Positions 412 to 30,249 of a stretch of DNA of 34,016 nucleotides are shown here, in pieces. The notes under the pieces were generated by a model. That model saw only the letters and a program-made list of their open reading frames with translations. It was not told where the DNA came from and did not search any database. The stretch's first letter is position 1, and every line of letters begins with the position of its first letter. The position numbers were made by a program, and so were the translations under genes. This DNA is from Synechococcus sp. HJ21-Hayes (GTDB lineage: Bacteria; Cyanobacteriota; Cyanobacteriia; PCC-6307; Cyanobiaceae): assembly GCF_024345835.1 (NCBI RefSeq), contig NZ_JAGQBW010000024.1, positions 1 to 34,016 of the forward strand, read 5' to 3'.

Positions 412-792
412 ATGCCTCCGATTCGACTGGTTCTCCTTGGCGGGGCTTGTGCCCTGGCAGCAGCGCTCTCCATCCCGGTTGCTGTGCAGGCGGGCAGCAA
501 TACGGAGATCGCCCGCCGCAGCTGGATCAATACGCTCAACACCGATCTCAAGGCTGGGATCAGCTACGAGGCCGTCAAATCCAATCCGCTGACACCAGCG
601 TTGTTCGCTGTTGCCGATGCGGCTTGCCTCAACCAGGCTGCCGCGCTGGCACTGGCCAAGTCGATGCTTGCGCCAGCCCAGGCCCGCGCAGCCGTGCAGC
701 GCTTTGATGAGCGCTACTGCCTGATCGCAGCTGATTCCACAGAGCACGCAACTGTTTTGGCAGCGACCCTGGAGGCCCGACCTTGCTGTTGA
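412..792 (+). CDS. Small secreted protein, 3' end probably chimeric
   Basis: A predicted 126-aa protein of unknown function. Residues 1-28 form a signal peptide: a short basic start, a hydrophobic core rich in Ala and Leu, and a likely VQA cleavage site. The mature part contains LKAGISYEAVKS, which resembles LKSGISQDKAWAY in the small secreted protein at 24399-24737, so the two may be related. Two cysteines are present before the last 30 residues. I chose the ATG at 412 rather than an upstream GTG at 385 because it puts the signal peptide at the very N-terminus. The last ~70 bases overlap, in antisense, a stretch that encodes a conserved LRR-protein segment (see 629-1189). The native C-terminus was therefore probably replaced at a recombination junction near 720-735. 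Confidence 0.5.
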   Translation: MPPIRLVLLGGACALAAALSIPVAVQAGSNTEIARRSWINTLNTDLKAGISYEAVKSNPLTPALFAVADAACLNQAAALALAKSMLAPAQARAAVQRFDERYCLIAADSTEHATVLAATLEARPCC

Positions 793-1189
793 GAGGTCTG
801 AGCTGGTCACCGATCACCTGGACCTGGATCTCTTGGAGTGAAACCACCAATCGGCGCGGCCACCTCTCCTCCAGGGCCGATAGTTCAGGACCTGTTGCCA
901 CCAGTAGGTCCGCATCATCCGGAATGGCGGCGACCTTCCCCCCGTCACAGCAGAACGCCTTGATTAGCGCCGGATCAGACGCCTTGTCTGTCATCCATAG
1001 TCTGATGGCGCGAAAACGGCGTGCCGGGTCAGGCTCAGACCACACGCCAGGCAGATCCAGATCACTGAAGGTGACCGTGCCGCTGGCGGCCACGTGAAGC
1101 GTGATCTCATCCGAGCGTTCCACGCAGTAGCCCAACAAGCGCAGGGCACGCTCTGGGGTGGTGGCAAGGCGCAGAAGAAAGTGCTTCAT
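629..1189 (-). CDS. Truncated N-terminal fragment of a BRCT-like/LRR protein
   Basis: The first ~158 residues match the N-terminal architecture of the large LRR proteins at 10035-12140 and 31509-33779. They comprise a ~60-residue start domain (MKHFLLRLATTPERALRLL compares with MQALFSIANNPERLMRLV), a BRCT-like segment at about residues 58-122 (GGKVAAIPDDADLLVATG, then PRRLVVSLQEI), and the helical lead-in SLPKQLRALWNQLRS. The protein then loses homology near base 718 and runs on for ~28 unrelated residues in antisense to the small secreted gene. The whole LRR part is missing. It starts 8 nt after the stop of the LRR gene at 1198-2943 and is the last gene of the operon. It may be a decayed paralogue, or it may supply in trans the BRCT-like part that the neighbouring LRR protein lacks. 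Confidence 0.6.
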   Translation of the reverse strand: MKHFLLRLATTPERALRLLGYCVERSDEITLHVAASGTVTFSDLDLPGVWSEPDPARRFRAIRLWMTDKASDPALIKAFCCDGGKVAAIPDDADLLVATGPELSALEERWPRRLVVSLQEIQVQVIGDQLRPLNSKVGPPGSLPKQLRALWNQLRSGSSAHQSAARLRGPGLAQASTWPVPARQPG

Positions 1190-1197
1190 CGGTTGGC

Positions 1198-2943
1198 TCA
1201 GCCCATCCCCAGCAACGACAGTTTCAACTTGGCGATCTCCGTGGCGCTGTCGAACGTGCAGCCGCCAAGCGCTTTGCTGAGCTCTGAGCGGGGGGCCACC
1301 TTCAACACCTCCAGCTCTTCCAGGCCCATCACAAAGGCCACGCCATCAACATCTAGATCGGAGAGGTCGAGAGCTTTTAGATGGGGGATGCGGCTCAGGG
1401 GTGCCAGATCGGAGGCCTTGAGACCCCAGTTCCACAATTGTTCGGGGTTGTGCATCCGCATGATCCGAAGCCGGCAGACCGGCAAGGTCGCCAAGGCATC
1501 GACGAGAGGATCGGTGAACTGCCAATGCTTCTCGTCATACTGAAAATCGACACTGAGCCATGTGTCCGGCAGGCTCGCCATCGCTGAGAGATCACGTGGC
1601 TGGGCCCCCACCCTGATGGAGGTCAGCTTGCTGCATCCTTCTACCCCGCTGAGGGTCCCCAGGTCAGGGCAGTCGCTGAAGACCAGTTCGCCATCCATAT
1701 CGACAGGGAGCCTGCCGATCTCGGTGATGGCGCATCTGCCGATCTCCAGAGACCGGACAGTTGCAGGCCAGCTTCGTGGAAGCTGATGGAGCTTGGCGCA
1801 ATCCAGGATGCGGACCTCCACCAGATCCGGCAGCGTCTCAAGGCATTGCAAAGAAGCCAGCGCAGTGCAATTCCAAATGGCAAACTCTTTCAGGCCACTC
1901 AGGCGTTGCAGTGCCGAAACATCAGCAAGGTTATGAAGACTGGATATATGGATGGATCGCAGTTCCGTACAACTTTCCAGTCCGTCCAATTGGGTGATGC
2001 GGGGTAGACCGTGGAGATCCAGCCGCTCACCGGTGAATCGCGGAAAGGAGCTCAGGCTCGTCAGCCCTGTCAAACCGCTGATGAAAAGCTGTTGCTGGGA
2101 AATGGTGATCTCACGCAGCGATTCAAAACTGGTGATCTGAAGACAGTTGCTGATGTTCAACTCATTAAGCTGTTTGAGTCCGGCGATGCCCGCCAGCCCA
2201 TCGATGCCTGTTTGGAACAGATCCAGACTGCTCAGCCTGTCAGCCGAACTGCTCAGTGGGGTGAGATCACTCAGGGATGCGTTGTAACTGAGGTCCACGG
2301 TTTCGAGCGTGCTGATCTCCCGCAAACCTTCGATGGATTTGAGCCCGACGTCTGAAGCCTTAAGCTTTCTGAGTTTAGGTGCGGGGAGCCAGTCGAGGGA
2401 CTCAATCTTGTGTGCACAATCTCCCCCTCTCGCCTGGAGTTCCAGCTTCTCCAGGCACGGGAAGGGTGCGATCCGATCGGAAAGGCAATAATCATGAGGT
2501 TTGGTATTGCTTTCGCAGGGATGCCAGATAGACAGTTTTAGGTCCATCAGTCCGACAAAGCCTTGCAGCTCCGGTATCGCTGGGCATTCCAGGTCCAGAC
2601 ACTGGATGCACTGCCTTAGCTCGGCACCTCGACTGCGGATCGGGGCTCTCGAAAGCAGACCGAGCAGGGCATAGAGAAGGCAACGATCTGCTTCCTTGTC
2701 GACCCTTGAGAAGCGACTGCCACGATCCAATCCCACAATGGCTGATTGGGAACTAGGCCTTGGAGATACCCCAACTGAATCGAAGATGTGATCAGCGGTG
2801 GTAGGGCTCTCTTCTGCCAGCTTGCTGAAGGCATCCAGCCCCTCGTTGATGGTCGTAATATTTTGCTGGCGTAGCTGCTCCCAAATGGGTCGGAGAGCCT
2901 TAGGCAATGAGCCCTGGGTGTCGGCTAGTGGTTTTAGCGTCAT
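1198..2943 (-). CDS. Leucine-rich repeat protein lacking the BRCT-like N-terminus
   Basis: A 581-aa protein. Residues 1-100 contain the helical segment seen in its paralogues (LPKALRPIWEQLRQQN, then TINEGLDAF). From about residue 150 to 540 it is a run of irregular ~22-24-residue leucine-rich repeats of the L..LDLS/L..L.I type, a solenoid that usually binds proteins. It ends with LEVLKVAPRSELSKALGGCT, a tail shared with the LRR protein at 31509-33779 and partly with 10035-12140. Unlike those two it has no ~160-residue BRCT-like N-terminal region; its start lies 21 nt after the vWA stop. A fragment encoding exactly that missing region follows 8 nt downstream. The likely role, inferred, is recognition or adaptor subunit of the MoxR/vWA operon. 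No signal peptide or membrane segment is visible, so it should be cytoplasmic. Confidence 0.85.
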   Translation of the reverse strand: MTLKPLADTQGSLPKALRPIWEQLRQQNITTINEGLDAFSKLAEESPTTADHIFDSVGVSPRPSSQSAIVGLDRGSRFSRVDKEADRCLLYALLGLLSRAPIRSRGAELRQCIQCLDLECPAIPELQGFVGLMDLKLSIWHPCESNTKPHDYCLSDRIAPFPCLEKLELQARGGDCAHKIESLDWLPAPKLRKLKASDVGLKSIEGLREISTLETVDLSYNASLSDLTPLSSSADRLSSLDLFQTGIDGLAGIAGLKQLNELNISNCLQITSFESLREITISQQQLFISGLTGLTSLSSFPRFTGERLDLHGLPRITQLDGLESCTELRSIHISSLHNLADVSALQRLSGLKEFAIWNCTALASLQCLETLPDLVEVRILDCAKLHQLPRSWPATVRSLEIGRCAITEIGRLPVDMDGELVFSDCPDLGTLSGVEGCSKLTSIRVGAQPRDLSAMASLPDTWLSVDFQYDEKHWQFTDPLVDALATLPVCRLRIMRMHNPEQLWNWGLKASDLAPLSRIPHLKALDLSDLDVDGVAFVMGLEELEVLKVAPRSELSKALGGCTFDSATEIAKLKLSLLGMG

Positions 2944-2964
2944 GGCGCGTTCACGAGGGATAGA

Positions 2965-4197
2965 TCAGATCAGTCGACAGATCTCGCCGTAGGGGATCTC
3001 TTCGCTGGGGAGTCCACCGGGAACGATGACCCAGAGCACTGGCAGCTGGGGAGCCTCCTCGGGAAAGTCTCCATAGCCATCGGTGAGATAGACGCACACC
3101 GCCTCCTGATCGCCGCTCCAGGCTTCGAGAGCCGCCTGGAAGAACGGACGGAAGTCGGTGCCTCCACCACCCTCCGGCTTCGGGATGTCGTGCTGCGCAT
3201 CGATCCTGTAGGGGCCGTAGCAGGAGGCATCGGCATACCAGAGCTGGCAATCCAACATCGGATAGGCCGACAGGATGCCGCTCAGTTCACCGAGAAACAG
3301 CGACATCTGCTCGTCGTCAATGGAGCCACTGGTGTCGATGCAACAGAACACCTGCACGCCCTCTCCCTCCAAGTGGTCGAGATAGAGGCCCCGATGGAGA
3401 AAGCGGCGATCGAAACCGCTGAAATCGGTGGGTGTGCGCACCAGATAACGCCATAGCAGTGATCGCCAATCGATCTGTGGATCCGCGATTTCGCCGAGGT
3501 GGCGCTGCATCCCTGCCGGCAGGGTGCCCTGACCCTGGCTATTGGCGAGCACCCTCGCCTGTTGGATGGCCTGCTTCCAATGGGCCTCCAGAGCACTGCG
3601 ATCGTGGAGGTCGTGCAACTCGCCGGCTAGATCGTGGCTGTTGCCCGAGTCGGGCGTATTTGTTTCAGCCTTGCCGCCTCCTTCTCCTCTTTCTCCTTCG
3701 TCGTCTCCATCGCCTGGTCCTGAATCAATAGAGCCTGGCTTGATCAGATCAGCCAGGGGCAGAGTGGGATGCTTCTTCTTGGGCTGTTTCTGGAGCAGTT
3801 CATAGATCTCCTCCACGCTCAGGTGCTCAAGCTTCTTGTTGCGGATAGCGCCCTGGGGCAGCGCGACACTCTCCTCAGCCGCCACCATGCCATTCACCAC
3901 AATGTCGGCGGCGATGTTGAAGAGGTCGGGGTCGCGTACACCTCGGCGGCTGGGATGGAGCAGGGCAGCATGCAATAGCTCATGCAAAAACACCGCGTCG
4001 CGTTCTGACGGCTGGAGATCGCCGTAACCTTCGGGATGAAAGAACAACAACTTCCCATCAGTGGCGGCGATGGGAACCTCCTCCGTGAAACGAACGTCCA
4101 CAAATAGCGCCAGCGCGGCAAAAAACGGCGAATGACGCCGCAGTCGAATGCGGGTGGCGCTGATCAGATCACTCAGTTGTTCGGCGGTGCGGCTCAT
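2965..4197 (-). CDS. DUF2201-type protein: metallopeptidase-like N-domain plus vWA-like domain
   Basis: A 410-aa protein. The N-terminal part carries a zinc-metallopeptidase-like motif HELLHAALLH (residues 72-81, HExxHxxxxH pattern) followed by FNIAADIVVN. This fits the DUF2201_N putative metallopeptidase family. Residues ~140-200 form an acidic, Gly-rich linker. The C-terminal half is a vWA-like domain with an intact metal-binding (MIDAS) set: DTSGS at 288-292, GGGGTDF with T347/D348, and LTDG with D373. Proteins of this family are almost always encoded beside a MoxR ATPase and are thought to work with it. Here MoxR is immediately upstream (22-nt gap) and an LRR gene is downstream. A second, divergent copy lies at 30250-31512. 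Whether the HExxH site cleaves anything is unknown. Confidence 0.92.
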   Translation of the reverse strand: MSRTAEQLSDLISATRIRLRRHSPFFAALALFVDVRFTEEVPIAATDGKLLFFHPEGYGDLQPSERDAVFLHELLHAALLHPSRRGVRDPDLFNIAADIVVNGMVAAEESVALPQGAIRNKKLEHLSVEEIYELLQKQPKKKHPTLPLADLIKPGSIDSGPGDGDDEGERGEGGGKAETNTPDSGNSHDLAGELHDLHDRSALEAHWKQAIQQARVLANSQGQGTLPAGMQRHLGEIADPQIDWRSLLWRYLVRTPTDFSGFDRRFLHRGLYLDHLEGEGVQVFCCIDTSGSIDDEQMSLFLGELSGILSAYPMLDCQLWYADASCYGPYRIDAQHDIPKPEGGGGTDFRPFFQAALEAWSGDQEAVCVYLTDGYGDFPEEAPQLPVLWVIVPGGLPSEEIPYGEICRLI

Positions 4198-4219
4198 GGC
4201 GTCGTTGCAGCGCGGGAGC

Positions 4220-5251
4220 TCATTGATTAATCAGCTGGCTGTAATGCGCGAGGTACTTCTGAATCGCCGCATCCTTCATCACCACCTTGGCGAGGTTAGC
4301 CAGCTGCTTGCGTCGCTGGAACTGGTTCACAACATCGGCGGCATAAAGCTGTACCCACTCTTCACTCGCTTTGGCGATCAGCCACTGAAACACGGCAAGC
4401 ACCTGCGGGGGCTTCTGCGACCGCACCGTTAGTCCGGTTGTTGTCGCCCAACGACTGGATGCTTCCTTCGGGAAGACGATCTTGTCACCCTTTCCGGCAG
4501 CGATCGCATCGAGATCCGGCAGGTCGTCGTATACAGCGAGATAGGCGCGAAATTCTGAGGCCGCACCTTCTCCAACTGCCGCATCCACCGGCAGGTTGGC
4601 GCGATGCAAGCGGCTGGCCATCTCCCATGTCCGCGGCGAAGGCCAGGCAGGTGTTTTGGCGTCAAGCTTGTGGAGCAAGGTGGGGCGGAAGCCCAGGAAG
4701 GCGATCACCTGCTCGGAGAAGCCCCGCTCAAGGGCATGACTCTTGAAGCTGTCGAAGTCGGCTTCAACTGTGAGATGCAGAAAGCGGTTAGCCAGAGGGG
4801 CCGGCATTTCAAAGACCGAAGCCCGATCTTCCTTCCTATTTCCTGCGGCCCAGAGAAACCATCCGTCGGGCACCACGTAGCTGCCGACGCGGCGATCAAG
4901 AATCAACTGCTGTGCGACACCCTGCATCGCAGGAGGCGCCATGTTCAACTCATCAAGGAACAGGATGCCTTTGCCCTGACGCGGCAGAAATTCAGGGGGA
5001 TACCAGGTTGAGGTGCCGGTAGCATCATCCTCGGCCGGTGGAACGGGTACAGGAAGGCCTCGCAGATCGGTGGGTGCCAGCTGGCTGAGCCGTAGATCGA
5101 TGAAGTCCATCCCGGCTTCCTGCGCTACCTGAGCGACGATGCTCGACTTCCCGATCCCAGGAGGCCCCCAGATCATTGTGCTGATCGGTAGATCTGACTG
5201 CACCAGCTGATTGAGGTAGTTGATGAGCTGAGAGGGTTTGAGGCTTGACAT
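4220..5251 (-). CDS. MoxR-family AAA+ ATPase
   Basis: A 343-aa single-domain AAA+ protein. Walker A is GPPGIGKSS (residues 29-37) and Walker B is ILFLDELN (96-103), followed by APPAMQGVAQQ and the sensor-1-like AAGNRKED near 136-142. An arginine-finger-type NRF lies at 155-157. Length and motif order fit the MoxR clade. MoxR ATPases form hexameric rings that act as chaperones with a vWA-domain partner, and the partner gene is next downstream. It lies 47 nt after the DNA ligase stop, within the same minus-strand operon. The protein is presumably cytoplasmic. The second MoxR in the window (29105-30241) differs in its Walker A (GSHGIGKTS), so the two modules are divergent rather than a recent duplication. 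Confidence 0.93.
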   Translation of the reverse strand: MSSLKPSQLINYLNQLVQSDLPISTMIWGPPGIGKSSIVAQVAQEAGMDFIDLRLSQLAPTDLRGLPVPVPPAEDDATGTSTWYPPEFLPRQGKGILFLDELNMAPPAMQGVAQQLILDRRVGSYVVPDGWFLWAAGNRKEDRASVFEMPAPLANRFLHLTVEADFDSFKSHALERGFSEQVIAFLGFRPTLLHKLDAKTPAWPSPRTWEMASRLHRANLPVDAAVGEGAASEFRAYLAVYDDLPDLDAIAAGKGDKIVFPKEASSRWATTTGLTVRSQKPPQVLAVFQWLIAKASEEWVQLYAADVVNQFQRRKQLANLAKVVMKDAAIQKYLAHYSQLINQ

Positions 5252-5298
5252 CTGGGGCGGGCAGAACGGATGGCTGTAAAAAATGTGGTGAATGCCCT

Positions 5299-6786
5299 TC
5301 AGGCATTGGTCGACTTTTTCGCTGTCTTTGCGCTCGATGCGCTTTTCTTATCCTTCGGTTTAGAGACCTTCTTGGCCCTTGGTATGTCTGTCTGGACCTC
5401 GGACTCGGTACCCACCGCTTCCCAGCCCTTCTTAATGTTTTCAGCGATGAGAGAATCAGCGATCTGTTGAGCCTCGACCTCGCTAAGAGCTGAGCGAATG
5501 ATTCGTTCCAGTGGTGTCTTTCGATCAGGGCTGTAATCGGTGAAGTGGACCACCCACGCAGGCCAGCCTGGCCAGGCCTCATCCTTGCCGCTCTTCCAGA
5601 GGAGCAACTTGCGGACAGCAAGGCCGCCTTTGCCTGCTTTGCTCCAGACCTGACGACGAATCAGAGTGCTCCTGGGGAGCTCGCGGGGCTCGAGTACGGC
5701 ATCTGGGTCTAGATCAGGCAAAACCTCCTGCAGCTGGCTGACCCGGACATCCAGTGCACTGGCCTGCTTATCAGTTCGCCGTCTGACGACGACCGGATGG
5801 ATCATGCTCACGGCGATCGCATCCACAATCGGCTGCCAACCTTCGTGAGCCACATGGTGGAGAGCCCAACGTCGGATCGGATCACCTGAACTGTCTTCGC
5901 TCTGGAGATCGGTGCAGCTCAACTCGAGTACCACCGCCGGGTTGACGAATCGGTACAGGTTGCCGTCGCTGCTCGAATGCCTGAAGGAGCTTGGGCACTC
6001 CAGAGGCAGTAGGTCCGCAAGGAGCTCTCGACGCATAGTTTCCCCGGGCAGGTTGCCGCATGCACCTAACAGTTGAATTGAGCCGTCGCTCCGCTGAAGT
6101 CCCAGTAGCAGGGAGCGCACCTGATCCGGCTCGCTCGCCCTGGTGGTGAAGCCAACGACCACGGCGTCAAGACTGAAGGATGGCTTGATCTTGTAGATCT
6201 CACCGACTGAGCTGCGGACCACAAGCCCCTCAGCCTTGCCGCTCTCCACCCAGTTCTGTACGTGGGAGCGCAGCTCTCCAGGCTCCTGGAGTTCCTCGGT
6301 TGCCACCACCGAGATCGGATGCGCATCATCTGAATCGACCAATCGCTGCAGGATCTCCAGGCGCTGGTGATAGTCCGCCGGAGGGGCTGATCCATCCAGC
6401 TCCACCACATCAAACGCGGCAAAGGCCAGCGACTGCTGCTTCCCGTCCGCCAGTGCAGCCGCAACGTCCCCCACCCGCTCCCGGGCCTCTCCCTTGGCGG
6501 GTACGTGCAGCTCGCCGGCAATGACAAGTGGCTGCGGACAGCCCTGAGCAATGGACATCAATGCATCGAGGACTGGTCCCTTTTCAATCAATCGCCCGCC
6601 ACGGGCAAACAGGCATGCCTTCCCCTGGTGCAGCTCCGCCATCCAGAGCTCCCCATCAATTTTCCGGCTGACAAAGCAGAGCGCATGGGGAATCAGCTGT
6701 AGATCACCGGGCCTGATCGCGCGATAGCGCCCAGCCACTGAAGCTTTGTAGTGCCGGGCCAGGGATTCAAGTCGCGAATCAGTCAT
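5299..6786 (-). CDS. ATP-dependent DNA ligase with a conserved-looking C-terminal extension
   Basis: A 495-aa protein with the ordered nucleotidyltransferase motifs of ATP-dependent DNA ligases. Motif I is RKIDGELW (adenylated Lys42). It is followed by AGELHV, motif III FDVVELDG, motif IV EGLVVRS and motif V YKIKPSFSLDAVVVGF. An OB-fold stretch (SLLLGLQRSDGSIQLLGACG) and a motif-VI-like VRRRTDK come next. It should seal nicks using ATP. After the core comes a ~130-residue extension that includes WVVHFTDYSP and SLIAENIKKGWE, and finally a Lys/Ser-rich tail that could bind nucleic acid. I chose the ATG at 6786, 18 codons inside the longest frame, because it overlaps the previous gene's stop as ATGA, a typical coupling. 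Bacteria normally replicate with NAD-dependent LigA, so this is an accessory ligase. A stand-alone BRCT protein is encoded divergently (8225-8521). Confidence 0.9.
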   Translation of the reverse strand: MTDSRLESLARHYKASVAGRYRAIRPGDLQLIPHALCFVSRKIDGELWMAELHQGKACLFARGGRLIEKGPVLDALMSIAQGCPQPLVIAGELHVPAKGEARERVGDVAAALADGKQQSLAFAAFDVVELDGSAPPADYHQRLEILQRLVDSDDAHPISVVATEELQEPGELRSHVQNWVESGKAEGLVVRSSVGEIYKIKPSFSLDAVVVGFTTRASEPDQVRSLLLGLQRSDGSIQLLGACGNLPGETMRRELLADLLPLECPSSFRHSSSDGNLYRFVNPAVVLELSCTDLQSEDSSGDPIRRWALHHVAHEGWQPIVDAIAVSMIHPVVVRRRTDKQASALDVRVSQLQEVLPDLDPDAVLEPRELPRSTLIRRQVWSKAGKGGLAVRKLLLWKSGKDEAWPGWPAWVVHFTDYSPDRKTPLERIIRSALSEVEAQQIADSLIAENIKKGWEAVGTESEVQTDIPRAKKVSKPKDKKSASSAKTAKKSTNA

Positions 6787-7484
6787 GAGCGGGCCGGGGG
6801 CTGTTTGAGCTCGAGGTTGGACAACCGCAGCAGCAGGCAATAGCCGTTGTCACTGACTCGGCCCTCCAGGAAGGCACGCCACGGCAAACCATTGAGCTGC
6901 AACACCAGGGGATCACGAGACTTCTCTCCTGCGCCAAGAAGTACCATCTTATCGGCCTCATCGAGTTCAGCGGCAATGCCGTGCAGGAATTCGTAGGTGA
7001 GGCCGTCGGTATGCCAGAGCTGAAGCGTGCGGGTGAAGGCAAAACGGCGAACTGCATCCAGTCGCTTCATCCGGTTTTTTGTGAAGCGAACAGGAACGTC
7101 TTCGCTCACATTCGGCAACCGATCCTCTGGGGCTCGCCGTTCCTTTTCCTGACCGAACGGGTCCAGAAGGATTTCAACCACATCCGGAGCCAGGCGCAGC
7201 ACCTCGCGGCTGCTGTCGAGATACACCGTTCTCGTGCGTTCAACAGGACGGCCGATCAGCTCGAGGTCGACCTCAGGATCGCCATCAATCAAGGCTTGGG
7301 CGAGCTCTGAGCCATGGGCCTCGTGCAGGGCCTCGTGTGTGTTCGCTTCCCCAGCGGCCAGGAAACGGCGCATGGAGACAGGACGACCGTTGACGACTTT
7401 TTGCGGCGGAGGCTGCTCCTTGACGGAGACGAACCGAACAAAAGCATCACGGGAGTTGGCGTCAGCCAGATGAAGAGTGCGCAT
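6783..7484 (-). CDS. Unrecognised conserved-type protein of the ligase operon
   Basis: A 233-aa protein I do not recognise. It has no signal peptide or membrane span. The N-terminal half is charged (MRTLHLADANSRDAFVRF, then PVSMRRFLAAGEANTHEAL). The C-terminal half looks globular, with alternating strands and helices (FAFTRTLQLWHTDGLTYEF, LNGLPWRAFLEGRV). Its stop overlaps the ligase start (ATGA), and its own ATG lies 2 nt after the stop of the gene before it, so translation of all three is probably coupled. That tight coupling suggests a ligase partner or an operon-specific adaptor. No catalytic motif is obvious. Confidence 0.7.
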   Translation of the reverse strand: MRTLHLADANSRDAFVRFVSVKEQPPPQKVVNGRPVSMRRFLAAGEANTHEALHEAHGSELAQALIDGDPEVDLELIGRPVERTRTVYLDSSREVLRLAPDVVEILLDPFGQEKERRAPEDRLPNVSEDVPVRFTKNRMKRLDAVRRFAFTRTLQLWHTDGLTYEFLHGIAAELDEADKMVLLGAGEKSRDPLVLQLNGLPWRAFLEGRVSDNGYCLLLRLSNLELKQPPARS

Positions 7485-7486
7485 CT

Positions 7487-8086
7487 TCAGAGCATCTCGA
7501 AATCGAGGTCGTCATCGGCAGCCTCCTCGTCGTCGGGAGGCGGGGGGGCATTCGGTTCCAGAAAGCGCAGCTCAATCGGCACACCGACCATCAGGAAGAT
7601 GCCGTGTTCATTGGCAACAAGAAATCCGGTTTCCGAGCGGAAATCAGCTCTGTAGTTGAAGGGAAACCGCCAGAGTTGGCCTGTCTGCAGCGACGCAGCA
7701 AGGCCCTCGTCGATGGATTCGGGCTCAAGGCAGTAGACGGAGGTGATGGCAAGGTCCAGCAAGTCGGTGGCGGGCAAGGGCCCCTGGAGGTCCACCGGCT
7801 CTCCCAGGGTTGAGGGAACCGGTGCAAGGGGCACACCATCACTGTCCTGGGCCCCGATCTCCTTGGTCTCCACCTGGCGCCCATCGGGATCAAACCATCT
7901 CTGGGCCGTCATACCGGCAGTGATCAATACAGCACCGTCATCAGTCAGCGCGGCTCGGGTGCAGGGCTCACCGACTGCATCAACTGGGATCCGGCGCCTG
8001 GCGCCATAGAGCTTGCGGCGCTCAAGCTTGCTGAGCTGGAATGAGCTCGTCGCGCCGAGGTGGGTCACGACAACAGGCTTGGCCAT
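7487..8086 (-). CDS. Unrecognised first protein of the ligase operon, acidic tail
   Basis: A 199-aa protein of unknown family and the first gene of the minus-strand operon. It starts with MAKPVVVTHLGATSSFQLSKL. It is rich in beta-type stretches (GAVLITAGMTAQRWF, TDLLDLAITSVYCLEPES) and ends in a Pro-rich then strongly acidic tail (EEAADDDLDFEML). No membrane span, signal peptide or helix-turn-helix was seen. It lies 2 nt upstream of the next gene. The acidic C-terminus could be an interaction peptide, but this is inference. The 138-bp divergent promoter region behind it contains a candidate copy of the island's palindrome (8141-8157). Confidence 0.7.
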   Translation of the reverse strand: MAKPVVVTHLGATSSFQLSKLERRKLYGARRRIPVDAVGEPCTRAALTDDGAVLITAGMTAQRWFDPDGRQVETKEIGAQDSDGVPLAPVPSTLGEPVDLQGPLPATDLLDLAITSVYCLEPESIDEGLAASLQTGQLWRFPFNYRADFRSETGFLVANEHGIFLMVGVPIELRFLEPNAPPPPDDEEAADDDLDFEML

Positions 8087-8140
8087 GCTGCTGAGTCCGA
8101 TGAGATTAACCTACGCCCCCCCAAGGACGGCACCCCCAGT

Positions 8141-8157
8141 TATTCGCTGGGTGCATA
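8141..8157. promoter_or_regulatory. Weak candidate copy of the TATGCA-N5-TGCATA operator
   Basis: TATTCG-CTGGG-TGCATA. The right half-site is perfect and the left half matches at 3 of 6 bases. It lies in the divergent promoter region between 8086 (minus) and 8225 (plus), 54 nt from the minus-strand start. Read on the minus strand it begins AAAACTATGCA, the same flank as the perfect site at 33830-33846, which sits a similar distance (50 nt) from its own gene. A comparable partial match occurs by chance inside a coding region (22603-22619), so the flank and the position carry the argument. Confidence 0.4.
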
Positions 8158-8224
8158 GTTTTGCCAGTGACAGGCCGTCCTGCGGAGGGCTTAATCTGTT
8201 TGCACCTGGCACGGTCTCACAGGG

Positions 8225-8521
8225 ATGAAGAACAATGAACCGGCGGTAGAGTGGGACTGTGAGACGATCCTGGTGTGCAGCGATGCCTTCGCAGGGCTCA
8301 CCGTGGTGATCACGGGCAAACTCGAGCGGATGGAGCGCAAGGAGGCGGAGCGCCTTGTGGAACGCGCAGGCGGCAACGCCGTCGGCTCGATCAGTGGCAA
8401 GACTGACCTTCTGGTGGCGGGCGACAAGGCAGGCAGCAAGCTCACCAAGGCCAAGGAGATGGGCGTGGACGTGATCGATGAGGCTGCCTTCATTGCCAGA
8501 CTTGAACTTGTTCTCCCCTGA
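8225..8521 (+). CDS. Stand-alone BRCT-domain protein
   Basis: A 98-aa protein that is essentially one BRCT domain (residues ~22-95). FAGLTVVITGKLERMERKEA is the classic first strand and helix, RAGGNAVGSIS carries the Gly-Gly turn, KTDLLVAGDKAGSKLTKAKE and then GVDVIDEAAFIARL complete the fold. It resembles the C-terminal BRCT of NAD-dependent ligases. BRCT domains bind other BRCT domains, phosphopeptides or DNA ends. It is transcribed divergently from the ligase operon and lies 12 nt before the HtrA-type protease, so the two probably form an operon. It likely partners the ligase or the BRCT-like regions of the LRR proteins, though that is inferred. The ATG at 8225 is preceded only by a weak purine stretch. 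Confidence 0.88.
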   Translation: MKNNEPAVEWDCETILVCSDAFAGLTVVITGKLERMERKEAERLVERAGGNAVGSISGKTDLLVAGDKAGSKLTKAKEMGVDVIDEAAFIARLELVLP

Positions 8522-8533
8522 GGCCCTGTGCTC

Positions 8534-9430
8534 ATGACGGCTGCGCTGCAGGCTCTGAACGACGAACTCACCGGCTTGATCCGCCGAGTCCTGCCATCGA
8601 CGGTGACGATCGAGGGCTACAGCAAGGATCTCTCCGAAAACAGCCAGGGTTCCGGCTGGATCTACGCACCCGGACTGGTGGTGACCAACCATCACGTCAT
8701 CGATGGCATGGAAAACCCCGTCACCGTCAGTCCGGTTGGGCGCGCCGGCATCACAGGTGACGTGATCGGCAGCGACCCGGAAAACGATATTGCTGTGATC
8801 CGCGTTGAGGGGCTGGACGGCCAGCCTCTCCAGCTCGAACTGGAAGCACCCAGGCTTGGGGAACTGTGCGTGGCGATCGGGTCACCCCACTCCTACAGGG
8901 AATCGGCCAGTCTTGGAATCATCAGCGGCCTGTCCCGCCAGATTCGGATGGCGGATGGAACCGTGATTGAGGAAATGATTCAAACCGATGCGTCGGTGAA
9001 CCCTGGGAACTCAGGCGGGCCGCTGGTCGATATTCATGGCCGTGTTGTTGGCATGAACACCATGGGGCCGGCGGAGACCGTGAATATGGCCGTTCCCGCC
9101 GAAACAATCGCCGCTGTTGTTCCTGAGATCGTGAGCCACGGAAGTGTTTTGCGCGCCAGCATCGGCATTTCCATTGCGGTGATCGAGCACTCGGGTGGCC
9201 TCCAGCGAGCCATCAGCGTGCGCAAGGTGAAGGATGCAGATCAGTCCCCACTGGAAAGCGGCGATATCCTTCTCCAGATCAATGGCAGAGAGCTGAAGCG
9301 GCGGATCGATGTCATACGAGCACTCGGACGTGAAGCGGTCGATCAGCAAGTCACCATCTTGATCGAGCGAAACGGTGAATCCAAGACGGTGGAGGTTCTG
9401 GCAAAAGCGAGAACCTCCTCGAAAGGCTAG
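8534..9430 (+). CDS. HtrA/DegP-like trypsin-fold serine protease with PDZ domain, no signal peptide
   Basis: A 298-aa protein. The trypsin-like S1C domain has its triad visible: His54 in VVTNHHVIDG, Asp85 in ENDIAVIRV, and Ser160 in NPGNSGGPLVD. From about residue 205 to 290 comes a PDZ-type domain (SPLESGDILLQINGRELKR, RRIDVIRALGRE). HtrA enzymes are normally exported; this one starts directly with a soluble helix and has no signal peptide or anchor, so it should act in the cytoplasm. A GTG two codons upstream (8528) is an alternative start. It follows the BRCT gene by 12 nt. Trypsin-like proteases are known parts of several bacterial conflict systems with MoxR/vWA or STAND proteins, which fits this context. 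Confidence 0.92.
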   Translation: MTAALQALNDELTGLIRRVLPSTVTIEGYSKDLSENSQGSGWIYAPGLVVTNHHVIDGMENPVTVSPVGRAGITGDVIGSDPENDIAVIRVEGLDGQPLQLELEAPRLGELCVAIGSPHSYRESASLGIISGLSRQIRMADGTVIEEMIQTDASVNPGNSGGPLVDIHGRVVGMNTMGPAETVNMAVPAETIAAVVPEIVSHGSVLRASIGISIAVIEHSGGLQRAISVRKVKDADQSPLESGDILLQINGRELKRRIDVIRALGREAVDQQVTILIERNGESKTVEVLAKARTSSKG

Positions 9431-9448: not shown

Positions 9449-10000
9449 TTAAACCTCGATTTCGTCGTCCGCCTCCTCATTGAAACGCTCGCCTCCCAGC
9501 CTGACCTTCAAGCGGTCGTCATACAAGTCCGCTTCATCAATCATGTCTGAAATGATGCAAGCCACCAATTCAGGACTGGGTTTTTCTGCTGGATATTTAT
9601 AGTAGTACCGGATCTGCGACTCCTTCTCAAAGAAGTACATCTGGCCGATCACGATGTCGGCATTGATCTCGTTGATGAGGGCATACAGGGCTGCGCTTTC
9701 CTTGACGCCATCAAGTAACAAGGACCTGAAAACAAGCGCTGAGGGATCGGACTCAATTGAGACAACGACTCCTGCGCTGTCGCCTGTGACCACGAAATCG
9801 CCATCTTCAGTTGGATTCGCGTCTTCCGGCTTCTTCCCCGTCAGGATAGCGACGGCGCGCCTCGTGACATCAACAAGGGTGTCATGGTCAGCGCCTTGGT
9901 AGGTGAGCTCATCGTCGGCCATTTGCACAGCACTGGGTTCATACAGCATTGTCCCATGAGTCGGCCACTCAGCAACCCAAGGAATGGGGGCATCGGGCAT
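9449..10000 (-). CDS. CesT/YbjN-like (type III chaperone fold) protein, copy 1
   Basis: A 183-aa protein clearly paralogous to 17698-18222 and to the N-terminal half of 18238-19212. Shared features are the LINEIN motif after an LL..V..S..LY stretch, a YYYK/YYRH strand, and the C-terminal peptide LGGERFNEEADDEIEV (compare VGGERWIERASDEIDV in copy 2). The alpha/beta pattern is that of the YbjN / type III secretion chaperone superfamily, whose members bind peptides; that assignment is from pattern, not a search. Homology begins around MADDELTYQ (base 9922), so the first 26 residues may be extra or a mis-start. It is last in a three-gene minus operon, 34 nt after the LRR gene, and converges on the protease gene. 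Confidence 0.78.
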   Translation of the reverse strand: MPDAPIPWVAEWPTHGTMLYEPSAVQMADDELTYQGADHDTLVDVTRRAVAILTGKKPEDANPTEDGDFVVTGDSAGVVVSIESDPSALVFRSLLLDGVKESAALYALINEINADIVIGQMYFFEKESQIRYYYKYPAEKPSPELVACIISDMIDEADLYDDRLKVRLGGERFNEEADDEIEV

Positions 10001-10034: not shown

Positions 10035-12140
10035 TCATGAGACCAGCAGCTGCATCTTAACTTTTGCTACCTTTGACGCAGTATTAAAAGTGCAACCACC
10101 AAGCTCGGGCAGGGAACCCGCAGGGAATTGCAGATATTCAAGGGCATTCATGTTGATGATCGGACGTAGCTCGTCCTTCTTGATCCACAGATAGTTGACA
10201 TCAAGATCAAGAGCCACCAAATTCTCCAGGCGCGTGAGGTTGGTCAAGTCAATATCCTCGTAGTCATCCAGCCTGAGCCTGCAGACTGGCAGTTTTGACA
10301 AGATATCCACTACCACATCTGGCAAGCTCGATTTATTTTCCATCTTGATATTGAGCCATAGGTCTTGATAGCCTGCTAGCGGCATAAGATCATTCATAGC
10401 TGGAATCTGGGACATGGTGAGCCAGATTTCCTGGATCTTGACGCTGTTGCGCAGACCCTCCACTGTCTCCAATCCATGTACAGTTTTAAGACTCAGATCT
10501 TCGTCGTATGAAGAAGGAAGCTCGCCGATTTGACGCGTTGCAAGGTCGCTCAGGCTTAAATGCCTCAAAGAGTCGGGCCAGCGCTCAGGCATGCTGACCA
10601 GCTTCGTGCATCCTGAAATGGATACACGCTGCAGATTCGGCAGGCTACCCAAGACTCTCAGGTCATCAAGGTCGGCACACCTTGTGATAACCACCTCCTC
10701 AAGCGAAGAGAGTGACAGCAACTGAGCAATGGAGGACAGGCGCTGTAGGTCGCTCAGATCGAGCCTTTTGAGATTCTTTATCTTATCAATGCCGGCAAGG
10801 TCGGATATAGGCAAATCCCACAACGTAAGGCTGCTCCCATCAAAGCATGGGAACCATCGCAAGCTTTCAATCGGTGCATTCCTTAAGCACAATAGATCTG
10901 AAGTGACTGCCGCCTGCTCCAGGCCGCGGAGGCTGAGCAGCTGCTTGCAGTTATCGATGTTGAGATCGTCAATCTGTTGACAACCAGAGAGATTCTGTAG
11001 CGTTGTGATATCCGTTTCCGCCAGATTAATGTTGCGCAAGGATTTGCAAGCCGCTGCAAGGGGGGCCAGATCGCTGACGGAGGTGCCGCTGATATCAATT
11101 GAAGATAGATTGACGCATTTAGATACACCACTAATCTCCTTGAACTCTGCGCCAACTAGCGTCAGCCTCTCGAGTCTGGGGGCGTCGAGATGGTCAAATT
11201 GAATTGTTGCACCATCAGCCATGCTAAGCGACAATTCGGTAAGCCTTGTGAGGCCCAGCCAGCAGTCCGACAAGCAAGCAGAAGGTCTTGTTCTATCCGG
11301 CTCAAGGATTTGAATATTGATCGTCTCTAAATTCTCGAAAGACCACAATTGTGGCATTACAATGATCTCAAGTGGCTCATACTCTGCCCATGGCTGGTTC
11401 AAGCTTGTGATACCGAGCCGCAAGGCTTCACCACGGCTACCGGCTGGGCATCGGGAGAGGATGCCGAGAAGTGCGTAGTAGGAATAGGAATGCGTGAAGG
11501 CATCACTCAATCTGAATCGCCGACCAGGAAACAGAGCGCCATCGATAACCTCAACTTGATCGAGCAATGGATCGGCGGCTGTGGGATCTGTTTGGAGGAG
11601 ACTTTCCAGCAGGTTCAGGCCTTCATTGATCGCCGGGATTGAACGACGTCGTAGCTTCGCCCAACAGGCCTTGAGATTGTCCGGAAGACGTGGGACAGGT
11701 GTGAGATCTGGATTCACAGGAGCCCGTAGGCGATCAGCTTGCACGGAATCCTTCAGTAAAGAGCTGAATTCAGCTTCGCTGATCACAAGCTTGCGAGGAT
11801 AACGATCACAAAGAGCATTGATCTCACACGTGTCACAGACAACCAGATCAGCTTCTCCTGGGTCATCACAGATTTCTCCTCCTGCCTCGAGGATCAAACG
11901 AATGAGTTCAAGGTCAGGACTATTGGCGTCGAGGTGAATCCGCATATCTTGACAAGGCTGCTCATCGACGAGCGCAATCTCCAGCGATTCATCAAGACTG
12001 AACGTGAAGATTGCCTTGACCGTCTGATGAAGTGCGCTGGCTTTGCACTGGCTTGTGAGCTCAAAGCCTTTATCGCTTAGATGGTTGACAAGACGCATCA
12101 ACCGCTCAGGATTGTTGGCAATAGAAAAAAGTGCTTGCAT
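10035..12140 (-). CDS. BRCT-like / leucine-rich repeat protein
   Basis: A 701-aa protein. Residues 1-62 form a small alpha/beta start domain (MQALFSIANNPERLMRLV). Residues ~65-130 look BRCT-like: DMRIHL, an acidic helix, EAGGEICDDPGEADLVVCD with the Gly-Gly turn, then RKLVISEAEF. A helical stretch LKACWAKLRRRSIPAINEGL precedes irregular LRRs from about residue 270 to 670. The C-terminus LGGCTFNTASKVAKVKMQLL matches the tails of the other LRR proteins in the window. It is the middle gene of a minus operon with a small unknown gene upstream (41 nt) and a CesT-like gene downstream (34 nt). No export signal was seen. The probable role, inferred, is a recognition or scaffold subunit. Confidence 0.87.
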   Translation of the reverse strand: MQALFSIANNPERLMRLVNHLSDKGFELTSQCKASALHQTVKAIFTFSLDESLEIALVDEQPCQDMRIHLDANSPDLELIRLILEAGGEICDDPGEADLVVCDTCEINALCDRYPRKLVISEAEFSSLLKDSVQADRLRAPVNPDLTPVPRLPDNLKACWAKLRRRSIPAINEGLNLLESLLQTDPTAADPLLDQVEVIDGALFPGRRFRLSDAFTHSYSYYALLGILSRCPAGSRGEALRLGITSLNQPWAEYEPLEIIVMPQLWSFENLETINIQILEPDRTRPSACLSDCWLGLTRLTELSLSMADGATIQFDHLDAPRLERLTLVGAEFKEISGVSKCVNLSSIDISGTSVSDLAPLAAACKSLRNINLAETDITTLQNLSGCQQIDDLNIDNCKQLLSLRGLEQAAVTSDLLCLRNAPIESLRWFPCFDGSSLTLWDLPISDLAGIDKIKNLKRLDLSDLQRLSSIAQLLSLSSLEEVVITRCADLDDLRVLGSLPNLQRVSISGCTKLVSMPERWPDSLRHLSLSDLATRQIGELPSSYDEDLSLKTVHGLETVEGLRNSVKIQEIWLTMSQIPAMNDLMPLAGYQDLWLNIKMENKSSLPDVVVDILSKLPVCRLRLDDYEDIDLTNLTRLENLVALDLDVNYLWIKKDELRPIINMNALEYLQFPAGSLPELGGCTFNTASKVAKVKMQLLVS

Positions 12141-12718: not shown

Positions 12719-15700
12719 ATGGTTGAACACGAGGGCGTTCCACAGTCCCGTGTGGTGCGGGTGTTCCTCAGCAGCACCTTCCGCGACTTCATGCAGGAGC
12801 GCGACCGGCTGGTGAAGGAGGTGTTCCCGGAGCTCCGCCGCAAGGCCCGGGAGCGGGGTGTGGAGGTGGTGGAGGTGGATCTGCGCTGGGGCATCACCGA
12901 GGAGGAAAGCCGCCAGGGCAAGGTGTTGCCGATCTGCCTGGCCGAGATCAACCGCTGCAGGCCCTACTTCGTGGGGATGCTCGCGGAACGCTACGGCTGG
13001 GTGCCGCCGGCTGACGAAGACAACCGCGTCGTGCTGGCCGACGAGGAATACGCCTGGGTGGAGGAGCACCTGGGCCGCCGCAGCGTCACCGAGCTGGAGA
13101 TCCTGCATGGGGTGCTCAACAACCCGGAGATGGCCGGCAGGGCGTTCTTTTACTTCCGTGACCCCGCCTGGAGTCAGGCACAGACGGAGCCAGGCTTTGT
13201 CTGCGACAGCGAAGAGGAAGCAGAAAAGCTTGCCGACCTCAAGCAACGCATCCTTGCCAGTGGCTTCCCTGTGGTGAAAGAGGAAGACCTGCCAGACCCC
13301 AAGGCCCTAGCCGACAGGATCGGCACAGACCTCTGGGCCCTGATCGAGGAGCAGTTTCCGGAGCTGGATCAGCCCGATGCACTCGAGCGAGAGGAGCGCA
13401 AGCACGCCAGCTACCGCAGATCGCGCACCGAGCTCTATGAGGACGGCGATAGCGGCGGCGGAAAGGTGTCACAGCTGGAGCAGTGGATCGCTGCGGGTGA
13501 ACAGCGGATCCTGATCACCGGCGAATCAGGCGCCGGCAAGAGCGCCCTGATCGCCAACTGGATGCAGCGGCATCAGCAGAGCCATCCAGAGGATGTGTTG
13601 TTTGCCCACCACCTGGGCTGCAGCAACGACGCCAATGCCCTCGAGCCACTGCTGGCGCGCATGGTGCAGGCGGCCTCAACGCTGATGGCCCAGGAGAGCG
13701 ATCAGGCGCTGAGCGAACCGATGAAGGTGCCGCAGGACTACTGGGAGCTGGTGAGCACCGTCACCGACACCCTCAGCAAGCTCAGTTACTGGTGCAAGCA
13801 GCAGGGCCGCCGCTGGATCTGGGTACTCGACGGCCTCGATCGCCTTCCAGAAGAGAACCAGCAGGCTCTGCCCTGGCTGCCGCTGCAACTATTCCCCCAC
13901 CTACATGTGGTGATCAGTGCGCTGGATTGCCCGGCGCGCACGATCCTGCAGGAACGGGAGTACACCACCCTAACGATCGGCCCGCTGGAGCGGAAGGAGC
14001 AGAAGGCGCTGATAACCAACTATATGCGGCGTTACAACAAGACCTTGGTACCAGAGCTGGAGTCCAGGATCCTTGAGCATGAGCCAGCGCGGTCACCCTT
14101 ATTTCTGCGGGTGGTGCTGGATGAGCTGCGCGTCTGCGGTCGCCACGAAACGCTGGCGCAGCAGCTTGACGACTATCTCAAGGCGCCATCCGTGGATGCT
14201 TTTTACGCCAAGGTGCTGGAGCGGCTCGAGGGCGATGTGGGCCGAGAAGTGGTTGAAAAGGTGATGACGGCCCTGTGGGCCAGCCGCGCGGGGCTTAGTG
14301 AACCGGAGCTACTCGCTATCACTGGTGTAGCACCGCTGCAATGGTCGCCGATTGATCTTGGCCTGGAAGGGTCATTCGGCAGCAATGGCAACCAGCTGGT
14401 GTTCGACCATGACTTCTTGCGTCAAGCGGTGAAGGGTCGATATCTTCTGAATAAAGAAGCAGAGCTCAAGACGCACATTGGACTAGCAGATTGGTTTATC
14501 GGCAGAGAAGGCTGGGACAAGCGAGAAGCAGAGGAGCTCCCTTGGCAACTGCAGCACGCCGAAAGGTATGAATCGCTGTTTACCTGGCTAGCCGATCCCT
14601 GGAATATCTGCATACTGACGAGCCATCGACCCATCTCAGAGCTAATCAGCTACGAAAATCAACTTCGAACACTATCGGGTATCCACCTTGACGACATTAT
14701 TTGTGACTCAGTTGCGCACGAGATTGCAATAGAGAAAGGCAGGCCCGAGGTGCTTGTGCCATTTCTTCAGCAAATCAGAGAGTGCCTAGAAGAGATGGGC
14801 CTGTTCCGCTCTCTGTATATCACGGTCTCAAAAGAGCTTCTTTCATTTACAGCACAAGAGGACGTGCATCCAATGGAAGCTACTGCCAGCACAAGAGACC
14901 TTGCCAGGGCATTTCTGAATGTCGGTGACCACAGCTCCGCCAAACAGCTGTTTGACCAGCTATTGAAAATCAGCAAGATGTACAACCAAGTCGTAGATTG
15001 CGGCACCCTCAGCGATATTGCCGAGCTCAAGACTCGTCAAGGCAAAATGAAAGAAGCAGAAGAGTTGTGTTCAAGGGCATTGGCAAGCGCGAAAGATGCC
15101 TACGGGGAGAGGCACCTGCAGACCATCACCGCCATGAACAACCTTGGAGTTTTCTATAGTCGGAATTCACGCCTACAAGAAGCATTGGAAACATATACCC
15201 AGGCTCTTGGGATAATCAGAGATTTGACCGGCGAAGAATCACAGGAGACACTTGGCTTGTGCCACAACCTAAGCTCGCTGCACAATCGAATGCAGCAATA
15301 CCATCAAGCGGCCGACTTGGGATTGAGAGCGTACTCTGGGCGTATGAATATACTTGGCTCAACTCACCCGCTAACCCTTAACTCTCAGGCTTCATATGCG
15401 ACGGCGCTACAAGGTCAATGCGACTATGACCAGGCCAGGCAGTTGTTTTCCTCTGTTTACGAGGCAAGAAGATCGCTGCTTGGCGATGAGCATCCAAGCA
15501 CCCTGGCTGACAGGAACAACCTAGCACTTGCTTGCAGCGATCAAGGCGAATGGGAGCTTGCGAAAGAACTCTATGAATTCAATCTCGAAATAGAAGAGCG
15601 GCTTTATGGCGAGAGCTCGCCCTCTACCATCGTCTCATACAGAAATCTAGCCGCTCTTTGCCTTGAAAGGGAGCTTTACGGTGAAGCCGAGCGTTATTTC

Positions 15701-17698: not shown

Positions 17699-18222
17699 TG
17701 GGTATGATCAATATCCTTGATCCAACCCAAGCCAACGAAGCCATTCCAAGCCCAATGCACAACAAACCGACAGAAGCTCAGCTCCTAGACGCAGCCAAGC
17801 AGGCCGTCGGTTCGCTTTGTGATATTTCCGCTGATGACGTCGCCGTTAATGAGCATGGTGTGATCGACTTTGCCACGACCGATTCGAGCGCTGTTGTGTA
17901 TTTCTGGGTTAATGCAGGGGACGACGTCGAACCAGCCTCCTATCGATTTCAAGCAACGCTCCTGCGTAATGTGACCGAAAGCCCACTGGTCTATGAATTG
18001 ATTAATGCTATCAATGTCGATCTCGTGTATGGCCAGCTCTGTTTCCGAGAAGATGAGATCACTCTGTATTACCGGCATATGGTTACGACGTCTGAGCCCG
18101 ATGTTCTGGCATGGATCCTTAGCCAATTGCTTGAAGAAGCTGATCGCGCGGACGACGCGCTTCAAAGCCGTGTTGGTGGTGAGCGCTGGATTGAAAGGGC
18201 GAGCGATGAAATTGATGTCTAG
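17698..18222 (+). CDS. CesT/YbjN-like protein, copy 2, coupled to STAND copy 1
   Basis: A 174-aa protein. The ATG overlaps the STAND stop (TAATG), so translation is coupled and the two products are likely made together. It has an N-terminal extension up to PMHNKP, then the family body: QLLDAAKQAVGSLCDISADD, FQATLLRNVTESPLVYELIN, CFREDEITLYYRH, and the end peptide VGGERWIERASDEIDV. Similarity to 9449-10000 and 18238-19212 is evident throughout. The fold is inferred as YbjN/type III-chaperone-like, a peptide-binding class. A plausible job is holding or presenting a peptide to the STAND protein (inference). It converges on the next gene with a 15-nt gap. Confidence 0.8.
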   Translation: MGMINILDPTQANEAIPSPMHNKPTEAQLLDAAKQAVGSLCDISADDVAVNEHGVIDFATTDSSAVVYFWVNAGDDVEPASYRFQATLLRNVTESPLVYELINAINVDLVYGQLCFREDEITLYYRHMVTTSEPDVLAWILSQLLEEADRADDALQSRVGGERWIERASDEIDV

Positions 18223-19212: not shown

Positions 19213-19383
19213 GGCCTGGGTTGCACGCATAACCAAGAAATCTATTCCATTCGGCTTACGTTCGATCACCTGCTGTCCCCAGAAATCTGGCAGCGCATCA
19301 CGAAGGGCGCCGAAGAAACCACCCAAGCGGGCAGTTTGAAACTGCTCAGTCGATAGTCGTAGTTCTAAAGGGTCGAGCTCCAG
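19213..19383 (-). pseudogene. hipA N-terminal domain remnant
   Basis: In frame with, and directly upstream of, the CesT-like gene lie ~57 codons reading LELDPLELRLSTEQF, then FFGALRDALPDFWGQQVIER. This is the signature of the N-terminal domain of HipA-type kinases (the F-G-A-x-x-D-A-x-P-D-x-W-G-x-x-V motif). No kinase domain follows and no hipB-like gene precedes. Upstream, in another frame (19391-19504), is a 37-codon orphan frame I do not recognise. The 19213-19556 interval is therefore gene debris between the CesT-like gene and the toxin-antitoxin pair. Confidence 0.6.
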
Positions 19384-19556
19384 CTTCGATCTACAGCTGC
19401 TCGGGCCGGATGATCGGGCTGGAGCCCTCGGCTTTGACAGAAATGTCGATCCACCCGCACCGCAGCGCCGGTTCAACCGAATCCTTGATCTCGATTGGAT
19501 CCATGCCATAGCCGGTCAGGACACTCCATCTGGCTTTGGGTGGCCTCTGCGCTGAC

Positions 19557-20273: not shown

Positions 20274-20404
20274 CATTAATCCCGGATGCCCCTCTTTGCC
20301 TCGCTTGGGCAATGGCAGCCTCGCTGCTCGTACTTCGCAGCAAAAAGGCGCCAGCAACAGGGGTGCCGCTTAGCGTTGAACAACCCCAAACCGCTTGCAG
20401 CAGT

Positions 20405-20421: not shown

Positions 20422-20427
20422 ACACCC

Positions 20428-27534: not shown

Positions 27535-27544
27535 GACCAAAGCG

Positions 27545-30241: not shown

Positions 30242-30249
30242 TCCGGCCC

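Follow-up and report, generated by a model that had tools for sequence, protein, structure and literature searches.

The window analyzed here is a complete 34-kb contig (C17; 34,016 nucleotides, nt) of the 2.94-Mb draft genome of Synechococcus sp. HJ21-Hayes, and its minus strand carries a conserved unit of three genes, namely p199 (7487-8086; 199 amino acids, aa), p233 (6783-7484; 233 aa) and an ATP-dependent DNA ligase gene (5299-6786; 495 aa from its ATG, with a longer TTG-start frame beginning at 6840). The unit is smaller than the set that a first-pass annotation of this DNA had proposed as one system, in which the ligase was joined by BRCT, protease, MoxR, vWA and leucine-rich-repeat (LRR) genes. 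The reading that we favor, with moderate confidence, is that the p199-p233-ligase trio is a divergent Ku-ligase module for the joining of DNA ends, possibly used in defense in some genomes. All open reading frames named in the first-pass annotation are present where it had placed them, both the minus-strand row and a divergent pair of BRCT and HtrA-type protease genes, and the tight packing noted at the upstream end of the row is confirmed by a gap of 2 nt between p199 and p233 and an overlap of 4 nt between p233 and the ligase gene.

The order p199, p233, ligase on one strand is found in 12 of the 13 carriers (window included), which range from Prochlorococcus to cyanobacteria of other families. 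Besides the window, these are Synechococcus sp. 8F6 (locus L012), Prochlorococcus AG-670-O17 (L013), AG-363-P06 (L014), AG-355-N16 (L015) and AG-402-K21 (L016, L008), and the genomes G489 (L031), G703 (L032), G320 (L049), G804 (L057), G826 (L058), G858 (L056) and G868 (L059). The thirteenth, G320, holds a remnant with p233 and a truncated ligase only, and in L057 the ligase lies 3.7 kb downstream of p233. The genome-by-genome searches covered cyanobacteria. Of 386 sampled genomes, a single one besides the window had the ligase, preceded there by the same two small genes, and G023 gave a weak partial ligase match (E 7.1e-5, 34% over 150 residues). Two short patterns, run against one genome per species, returned five trio loci, all from Prochlorococcus or Synechococcus, and profile searches identified as carriers 7/400 genomes of the family Cyanobiaceae, to which Prochlorococcus and Synechococcus sp. 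8F6 also belong, 3/292 of the phylum and 5/243 of the order of G320. The carrier sets from these separate searches overlap, and the counts are lower bounds. In the window, 8F6, the Prochlorococcus loci and L031, p199 and p233 are separated by 2-3 nt, and the p233-ligase junction is either an overlap of 1-4 nt or a gap of 2 nt. The trio is under purifying selection, with dN/dS values in three pairs of 0.16-0.22 for p199, 0.10-0.35 for p233 and 0.14-0.22 for the ligase (nine comparisons by simple counts, with dS near saturation for the window pair). It is hardly credible that unrelated genes of a defense or mobile island have merely come together by chance in the window: in the loci compared, the HtrA gene and an LRR fragment do show no conserved association with the trio, but for the trio itself the synteny across genera and families refutes this explanation. 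A viral or plasmid home was also considered and rejected, as neither kind of scan gave a sign of it. No relatives of p199 or p233 were found in the viral contigs scanned, where a first ligase scan was empty and a second, broader scan picked up 59 viral ligases at 22-26%; plasmids queried with the L032 and L056 copies contained no p199 or p233 relatives, and the ligase matched 18 plasmid records at 24-30%, 12 of them annotated as ligD.

The ligase is identified by Pfam, NCBIfam and its motifs and includes an OB-fold region. The K, D, G and E of the KIDGE motif, together with EG, KxKP and a late DK, are invariant in 12/12 aligned ligases, and K42, the residue singled out for mutation in the first-pass annotation, does fall in KIDGE when counted from the ATG of the window ligase. 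The window copy scores 25 bits with the Pfam model DNA_ligase_A_C, just under the cut-off of 27.5, which its relatives pass. A C-terminal extension of ~85 residues (approximately residues 370-455) is conserved and matches no Pfam family. The nearest NCBIfam model of the window ligase is the NHEJ (non-homologous end joining) ligase domain, far below its cut-off, and a comparison of the ligase profile with PDB sequences returned a 'thermostable DNA ligase' and DNA ligase 4; the nearest models of the trio ligase are LigD-type ligases and DNA ligase 4.

p199 is predicted to be Ku-like, with a Ku/SPOC-type beta-barrel core and an acidic C-terminal tail ending in DDLDFEML. An AlphaFold2 model was built from five sequences (mean pLDDT 60.2; 82/199 residues at >=70), and in a Foldseek search against the PDB its ranks 1 and 2 are Mycobacterium tuberculosis Ku (E 3.1e-4 and 3.7e-4, probability 1.00), while 47 of the best 50 rows bear Ku, DNA-PK or NHEJ complex in their titles and the remaining three are Integrator INTS13/14 entries. 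By VIA, Bacillus subtilis Ku is matched with Z 10.1 (rmsd 2.9 over 102 residues) and M. tuberculosis Ku likewise with Z 10.1 (rmsd 6.0, 121 residues aligned), residues 1-179 of p199 lying on residues 3-179 of the chain. In a viral structure library the first two rows for p199 are Ku homologs (probability 1.00 and 0.92), and the other 48 rows listed have probabilities of <=0.23. p233 passed through the same modeling pipeline gave a poor model (pLDDT 43.6; best Foldseek E 0.4, best Z 4.5) and no fold match, which indicates that the pipeline does not return Ku by default.

Several observations weigh against this assignment, the main weakness of which is its dependence on one partly confident model. 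Residues 21-85 and 172-199 of the p199 model have pLDDT <50, and the first of these stretches presumably sits about where the Ku bridge inserts in the barrel. Only two PDB matches of p199 reach E 0.001; the M. tuberculosis Ku matches have TM-scores of 0.40 and 0.44 with whole-chain rmsd values of 15.9 and 15.3, and the bacterial Ku rows among the first ten reach TM-scores of only 0.40-0.44 at ~15-21 rmsd over the whole chain. VIA also returned INTS13-INTS14 (Z 8.7), Sld7 (7.8) and Med25 (7.6), under its own warning that Z <8 is common by chance. The barrels of these proteins belong to one superfamily, and since they too match p199, a general SPOC-like barrel is possible. At the sequence level, p199 and p233 have no meaningful match in Pfam, NCBIfam, PHROGs or PDB chains; hhalign comparison of p199 with 12 plasmid or phage Ku proteins was null twice (probability 0.1%), as were its comparisons of p233 with Ku, p199 with p233, p199 with the ligase and the ligase with Ku; and the Pfam Ku family PF02735 was found in 0/13 carriers (1/14 controls, B. 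subtilis, gave the control match). Further counter-evidence comes from the trio as a whole, with no polymerase or phosphoesterase domain in the window copy (in the ligase Pfam shows ligase domains only), and with broken copies elsewhere, p199 being frameshifted in L013, p233 in L059 and the ligase truncated in L049. The null profile comparison, the other matching barrels, the partial confidence of the model and its low TM-scores would suit an unrelated small beta-barrel, SPOC-like or other, in a nick-sealing accessory ligase complex that performs no end joining; we regard this as rather unlikely, given that Ku tops the lists of two libraries, in the viral one by a wide margin, and that the match spans residues 1-179 of p199 and 3-179 of M. 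tuberculosis Ku.

As a divergent Ku-ligase module, the trio could work as follows. p199 would encircle or otherwise bind broken DNA ends and, through its acidic tail, bring in p233, the ligase or both; the ATP-dependent ligase would then seal the ends. The tail closes with DF.M plus a hydrophobic residue in 11/11 unbroken copies of p199, and is likely a docking peptide. p233, the conserved partner, may be an obligatory adaptor or a second end-binding subunit. Depending on the genome, end processing and DNA binding would be assisted by an accessory module, be it a RecB-like nuclease-helicase, an AEP protein of primase-like type or a lone BRCT protein; in the window and a few relatives a MoxR-vWA-LRR chaperone machine is coupled to DNA-sealing genes, and plausibly loads or removes the repair complex. 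Of the two roles that the first-pass annotation had offered for the ligase, repair fits the trio better than the sealing of invading DNA.

The trio shares with bacterial NHEJ (Ku plus LigD) the placement of a Ku-fold prediction beside an ATP-dependent ligase with catalytic motifs, a ligase whose best NCBIfam model, well under its cut-off, is an NHEJ ligase domain, and, in one carrier, an added AEP primase-like gene as a counterpart of the LigD POL domain. This gene lies 99 nt upstream of p199 in G703 (L032:9471-10829) and encodes an AEP-TOTE-like protein (E 1.3e-5, 25.4 bits against a cut-off of 27), in which the primase carries a HAD-like region (weak HAD-IIIA match) at its C-terminus. The trio differs from bacterial NHEJ in that PF02735 Ku is absent, p233 is an additional conserved gene, the ligase has its own C-terminal extension and no POL or PE domains in Pfam, and the tail of p199 is acidic, whereas lysine-rich tails prevail among the aligned plasmid and phage Ku proteins. 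Tentatively, a new prokaryotic end-joining class may be proposed, in which a Ku no longer recognizable by sequence, p233 as an obligatory new partner and a dedicated ligase would be spread across cyanobacteria, Prochlorococcus among them, and would in some genomes, together with a MoxR-vWA-LRR remodeling machine and a nuclease-helicase, form a break-repair or defense complex. In the literature searched, as far as the sources were available, no prior description of the trio or of a DNA ligase with MoxR-vWA turned up. A review groups cyanobacteria with the prokaryotes that lack an NHEJ pathway, and elsewhere describes one Cyanothece strain in which random integration occurred through non-homologous recombination (PMC6843473). 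If true, a Ku-like protein with a ligase would overturn the view of 'no NHEJ' for some cyanobacterial lineages, including Prochlorococcus, and extend Ku by a further branch that has a novel partner protein. Genome editing would be affected, as would our understanding of how these abundant phototrophs live through DNA breaks or phage attack, and the MoxR-vWA link would point to DNA repair as a role of these orphan chaperones.

The gene next to the ligase varies between carriers, being MoxR in the window, a tandem AAA protein in G489 and a nuclease-helicase of 1183-1197 aa in 4/4 Prochlorococcus; the 8F6 contig ends 0.33 kb after the trio ligase. The nuclease-helicase, which we take to be TM0106/RecB-like, carries RNase_H_2, AAA_11 and AAA_12 in its L008 copy (Pfam), to which the other Prochlorococcus copies are related, and its helicase part matches MkoA (E 1.9e-55), presumably a component of Mokosh. 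Defense genes lie close to the Prochlorococcus loci: MzaB and MzaC adjoin L013, an Eco57I-like methyltransferase gene is near L015, and C5 methyltransferase, Vsr and PDC-M33 genes are near L014. By these neighbors only, a defense role of the trio is suggested, such that the trio, with the nuclease-helicase, BRCT and here MoxR-vWA-LRR, might act against phages on cut or nicked invader DNA or repair damage to the cell's own DNA, a reading that is compatible with Ku-like end joining. The patchy distribution (7/400 genomes of the family) and the MkoA match also speak for it; however, the trios of L056, L058 and L059 lie amid housekeeping-looking genes (judged by eye), PADLOC gave no match to the window trio at E 0.01, and repair genes also collect in defense islands, so that defense as the explanation of the trio appears possible, though improbable.

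Divergent from p199, the plus strand of the window encodes a lone LigA-type BRCT protein of 98 aa (8225-8521; Pfam, NCBIfam), which also occurs near the trio in L012, L031 and L016. A close lone BRCT gene thus accompanies the trio in 4/8 carriers of the family, namely the window, 8F6, G489 and AG-402-K21. Among 251 family genomes, BRCT matches <1e-24 are confined to these four carriers and to two trio-less genomes, in which the BRCT sits within longer frames (313 and 1092 aa); no equally close BRCT was found in AG-670-O17, AG-363-P06 or AG-355-N16, and weaker short BRCT frames in non-carriers, such as one of 93 aa in G529 (E 6e-18), were excluded from the close set. A 1091-aa protein (L161:322-3597) starts with a BRCT that is 67% identical over 73 residues to the lone BRCT of the window and continues with DUF6891 and TPR regions. 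Residues 8-35 of a SLATT_1 protein encoded in the window (24958-26694) recur (79%) near the BRCT gene of 8F6 (L012 8460-8543). Beginning 6 nt after the BRCT gene, an HtrA/Deg-type protease (Trypsin_2 plus PDZ; 8528-9430, plus strand; 300 aa) had been counted as part of the proposed set; among the loci examined, it stands beside BRCT in the window only, and it is probably incidental to the trio. A trypsin-like gene with 36% identity to HtrA over 171 columns lies ~1.3 kb from the MoxR-vWA-LRR set in L162.

Downstream of the ligase, the minus strand of the window continues with a MoxR-like AAA+ ATPase (4220-5251; 343 aa), a metallopeptidase-vWA protein (DUF2201_N plus DUF2201 in Pfam; 2965-4197; 410 aa) and an LRR protein (Pfam; 1198-2943; 581 aa). 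The ATPase passes the cut-off of the Pfam AAA model and matches phrog_1297 ('ATPase', E 7.8e-82), and scores only 16.8 bits with the MoxR family model AAA_3 (cut-off 27); the names MoxR and ligase are therefore to be taken with some reserve, the window scores for AAA_3 and DNA_ligase_A_C lying under their cut-offs. The vWA protein matches phrog_1314 (E 9e-72), labeled 'HNH endonuclease'. MoxR, vWA, LRR and HtrA were each rejected as part of the trio core, as they were seen beside the trio in 0/12 other carriers, the 8F6 locus being cut by its contig end. The vWA protein has matches in 4/13 carriers (window, 8F6, AG-670-O17 and AG-363-P06) and in 4/290 family genomes, two of which are the window genome and 8F6, and it lies on the trio contig in 8F6 (~20 kb away) and AG-670-O17 (~14 kb away). 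MoxR-vWA is present in 4/8 family trio carriers versus 2 of at least 282 other family genomes. Enrichment in trio carriers by Fisher test gives p ~4e-6 for vWA and ~6e-6 for the close BRCT, or 9e-5 and 1e-4 without the window, where 8 family carriers are compared with at least 282 (vWA) and at least 243 (BRCT) genomes (samples of 290 and 251 less 8) by tests that ignore shared ancestry and island clustering. The BRCT of G703 was tested at its locus only, single-cell genomes are incomplete, and the searches had different E limits.

In the loci read, vWA follows MoxR. An LRR partner is present in L159 and L162, arranged like a second set in the window, which consists of an LRR gene (27497-29098; 24.5% over 184 columns to the LRR protein that ends the set), a MoxR-like ATPase gene (29105-30241; 27.9% to the first MoxR) and a vWA gene (30238-31512; 30.9% to the first vWA) on the plus strand, followed by a convergent LRR gene on the minus strand (31509-33779). 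An LRV protein takes the place of LRR with MoxR-vWA in 8F6 and G046. The 8F6 row (L160:5-11039) comprises a nuclease-helicase, a 251-aa gene, a complete NAD-dependent ligase with BRCT, LRV (~1170 aa), MoxR and vWA; beyond a single opposite-strand gene lie Metallophos and SMC-type genes that by eye resemble SbcD/SbcC. The row in G046 (L163:6823-19899) is the same, except that the ligase is an HHH-BRCT C-terminal remnant only, separated from the helicase by transposase-like frames (by eye); the trio ligase was not found in G046. These two rows, together with the MoxR neighbor of the window trio, show that ligases and MoxR-vWA meet repeatedly, through different ligases. No ligase lies beside the second set in the window, and a third MoxR-vWA pair in the window genome (L009:6481-8689, G000 C23), with an apparently frameshifted MoxR, has no adjoining trio ligase. 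We read MoxR-vWA-LRR as a chaperone module coupled to, but separable from, the trio. A 171-aa gene was seen near the trio in AG-402-K21 (L008:14846-15361) and near MoxR-vWA in AG-363-P06 (L162:5741-6256).

These comparisons bear on the proposal that ligase, BRCT, HtrA, MoxR, vWA and LRR form one dedicated system, which we now consider very doubtful. It draws on the same-strand packing in the window, the L160 row, where MoxR-vWA accompanies a nuclease-helicase and an NAD-type ligase, the L163 row, which retains a ligase remnant, the enrichment of vWA and close BRCT in trio carriers, and the trypsin-like gene near the L162 set. Opposed to it are the 0/12 other carriers with MoxR/vWA adjoining the trio, the second window set and the C23 set that stand without an adjoining ligase, the HtrA-BRCT adjacency that recurs in no other locus examined, and the blindness of the Fisher tests to shared ancestry and island clustering. 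What survives of the first-pass proposal is a ligase conserved with two small partners and accompanied by a lone BRCT in half of the family carriers, and a link between ligases and MoxR-vWA that recurs in the 8F6 and G046 rows, with vWA enriched; a fixed full set is not supported, and the neighborhood as a whole is modular, yet not purely due to chance.

Two known groups of systems resemble the MoxR-vWA module. MoxR and vWA are adjacent also in the ternary conflict systems (VMAP, iSTAND, FtsH), in which trypsin-like peptidases occur (Kaur et al., 2020; PMC7159879). The window differs in that its vWA protein is of the DUF2201 metallopeptidase type and the third component is LRR or LRV, and none of VMAP, iSTAND and FtsH was found in a Pfam scan of ten window genes, the coverage of these components by Pfam being unchecked. 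In the available main text of that study, BRCT, DUF2201, leucine-rich, Ku domain and 'DNA ligase' each appear 0 times, and 'ligase' concerns Ub-like conjugation (PMC7159879). The MoxR plus metallopeptidase-vWA chaperone pair of jumbo phages has, in the part of its description available, the same domain make-up, with vWA fused to an N-terminal metallopeptidase and encoded beside MoxR (PMC7824862), and we infer that phrog_1297 and phrog_1314 represent this pair; in contrast, the window pair is chromosomal, and LRR and DNA ligase genes take the place of virion genes around it. NAD-dependent LigA offers a further parallel, as the lone BRCT of the window is of the LigA type and a LigA paralog takes the place of the ligase in the L160 MoxR-vWA row, whereas the window has an ATP-dependent ligase and encodes its BRCT separately.

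Further LRR-related genes flank the row. An LRR paralog of 701 aa with the same N-terminal domain is encoded at 10035-12140 (minus strand), and the 186-aa product of 629-1189 (minus strand), formerly described as a BRCT-like fragment, has no Pfam BRCT match and appears to be a truncated paralog of the N-terminal part of the LRR proteins, resembling the N-terminal ~164 residues of the 701-aa protein (31.7% over 164 columns). The window also contains two paralogous giant proteins (12719-17698 and 20395-24402; 41.5% identical), each of which, judged by eye, begins with a DUF4062-like region and contains an NTPase and TPR repeats, and YbjN-like chaperone genes lie near these DUF4062-type proteins at 9449-10000, 17698-18222 and 18238-19509.

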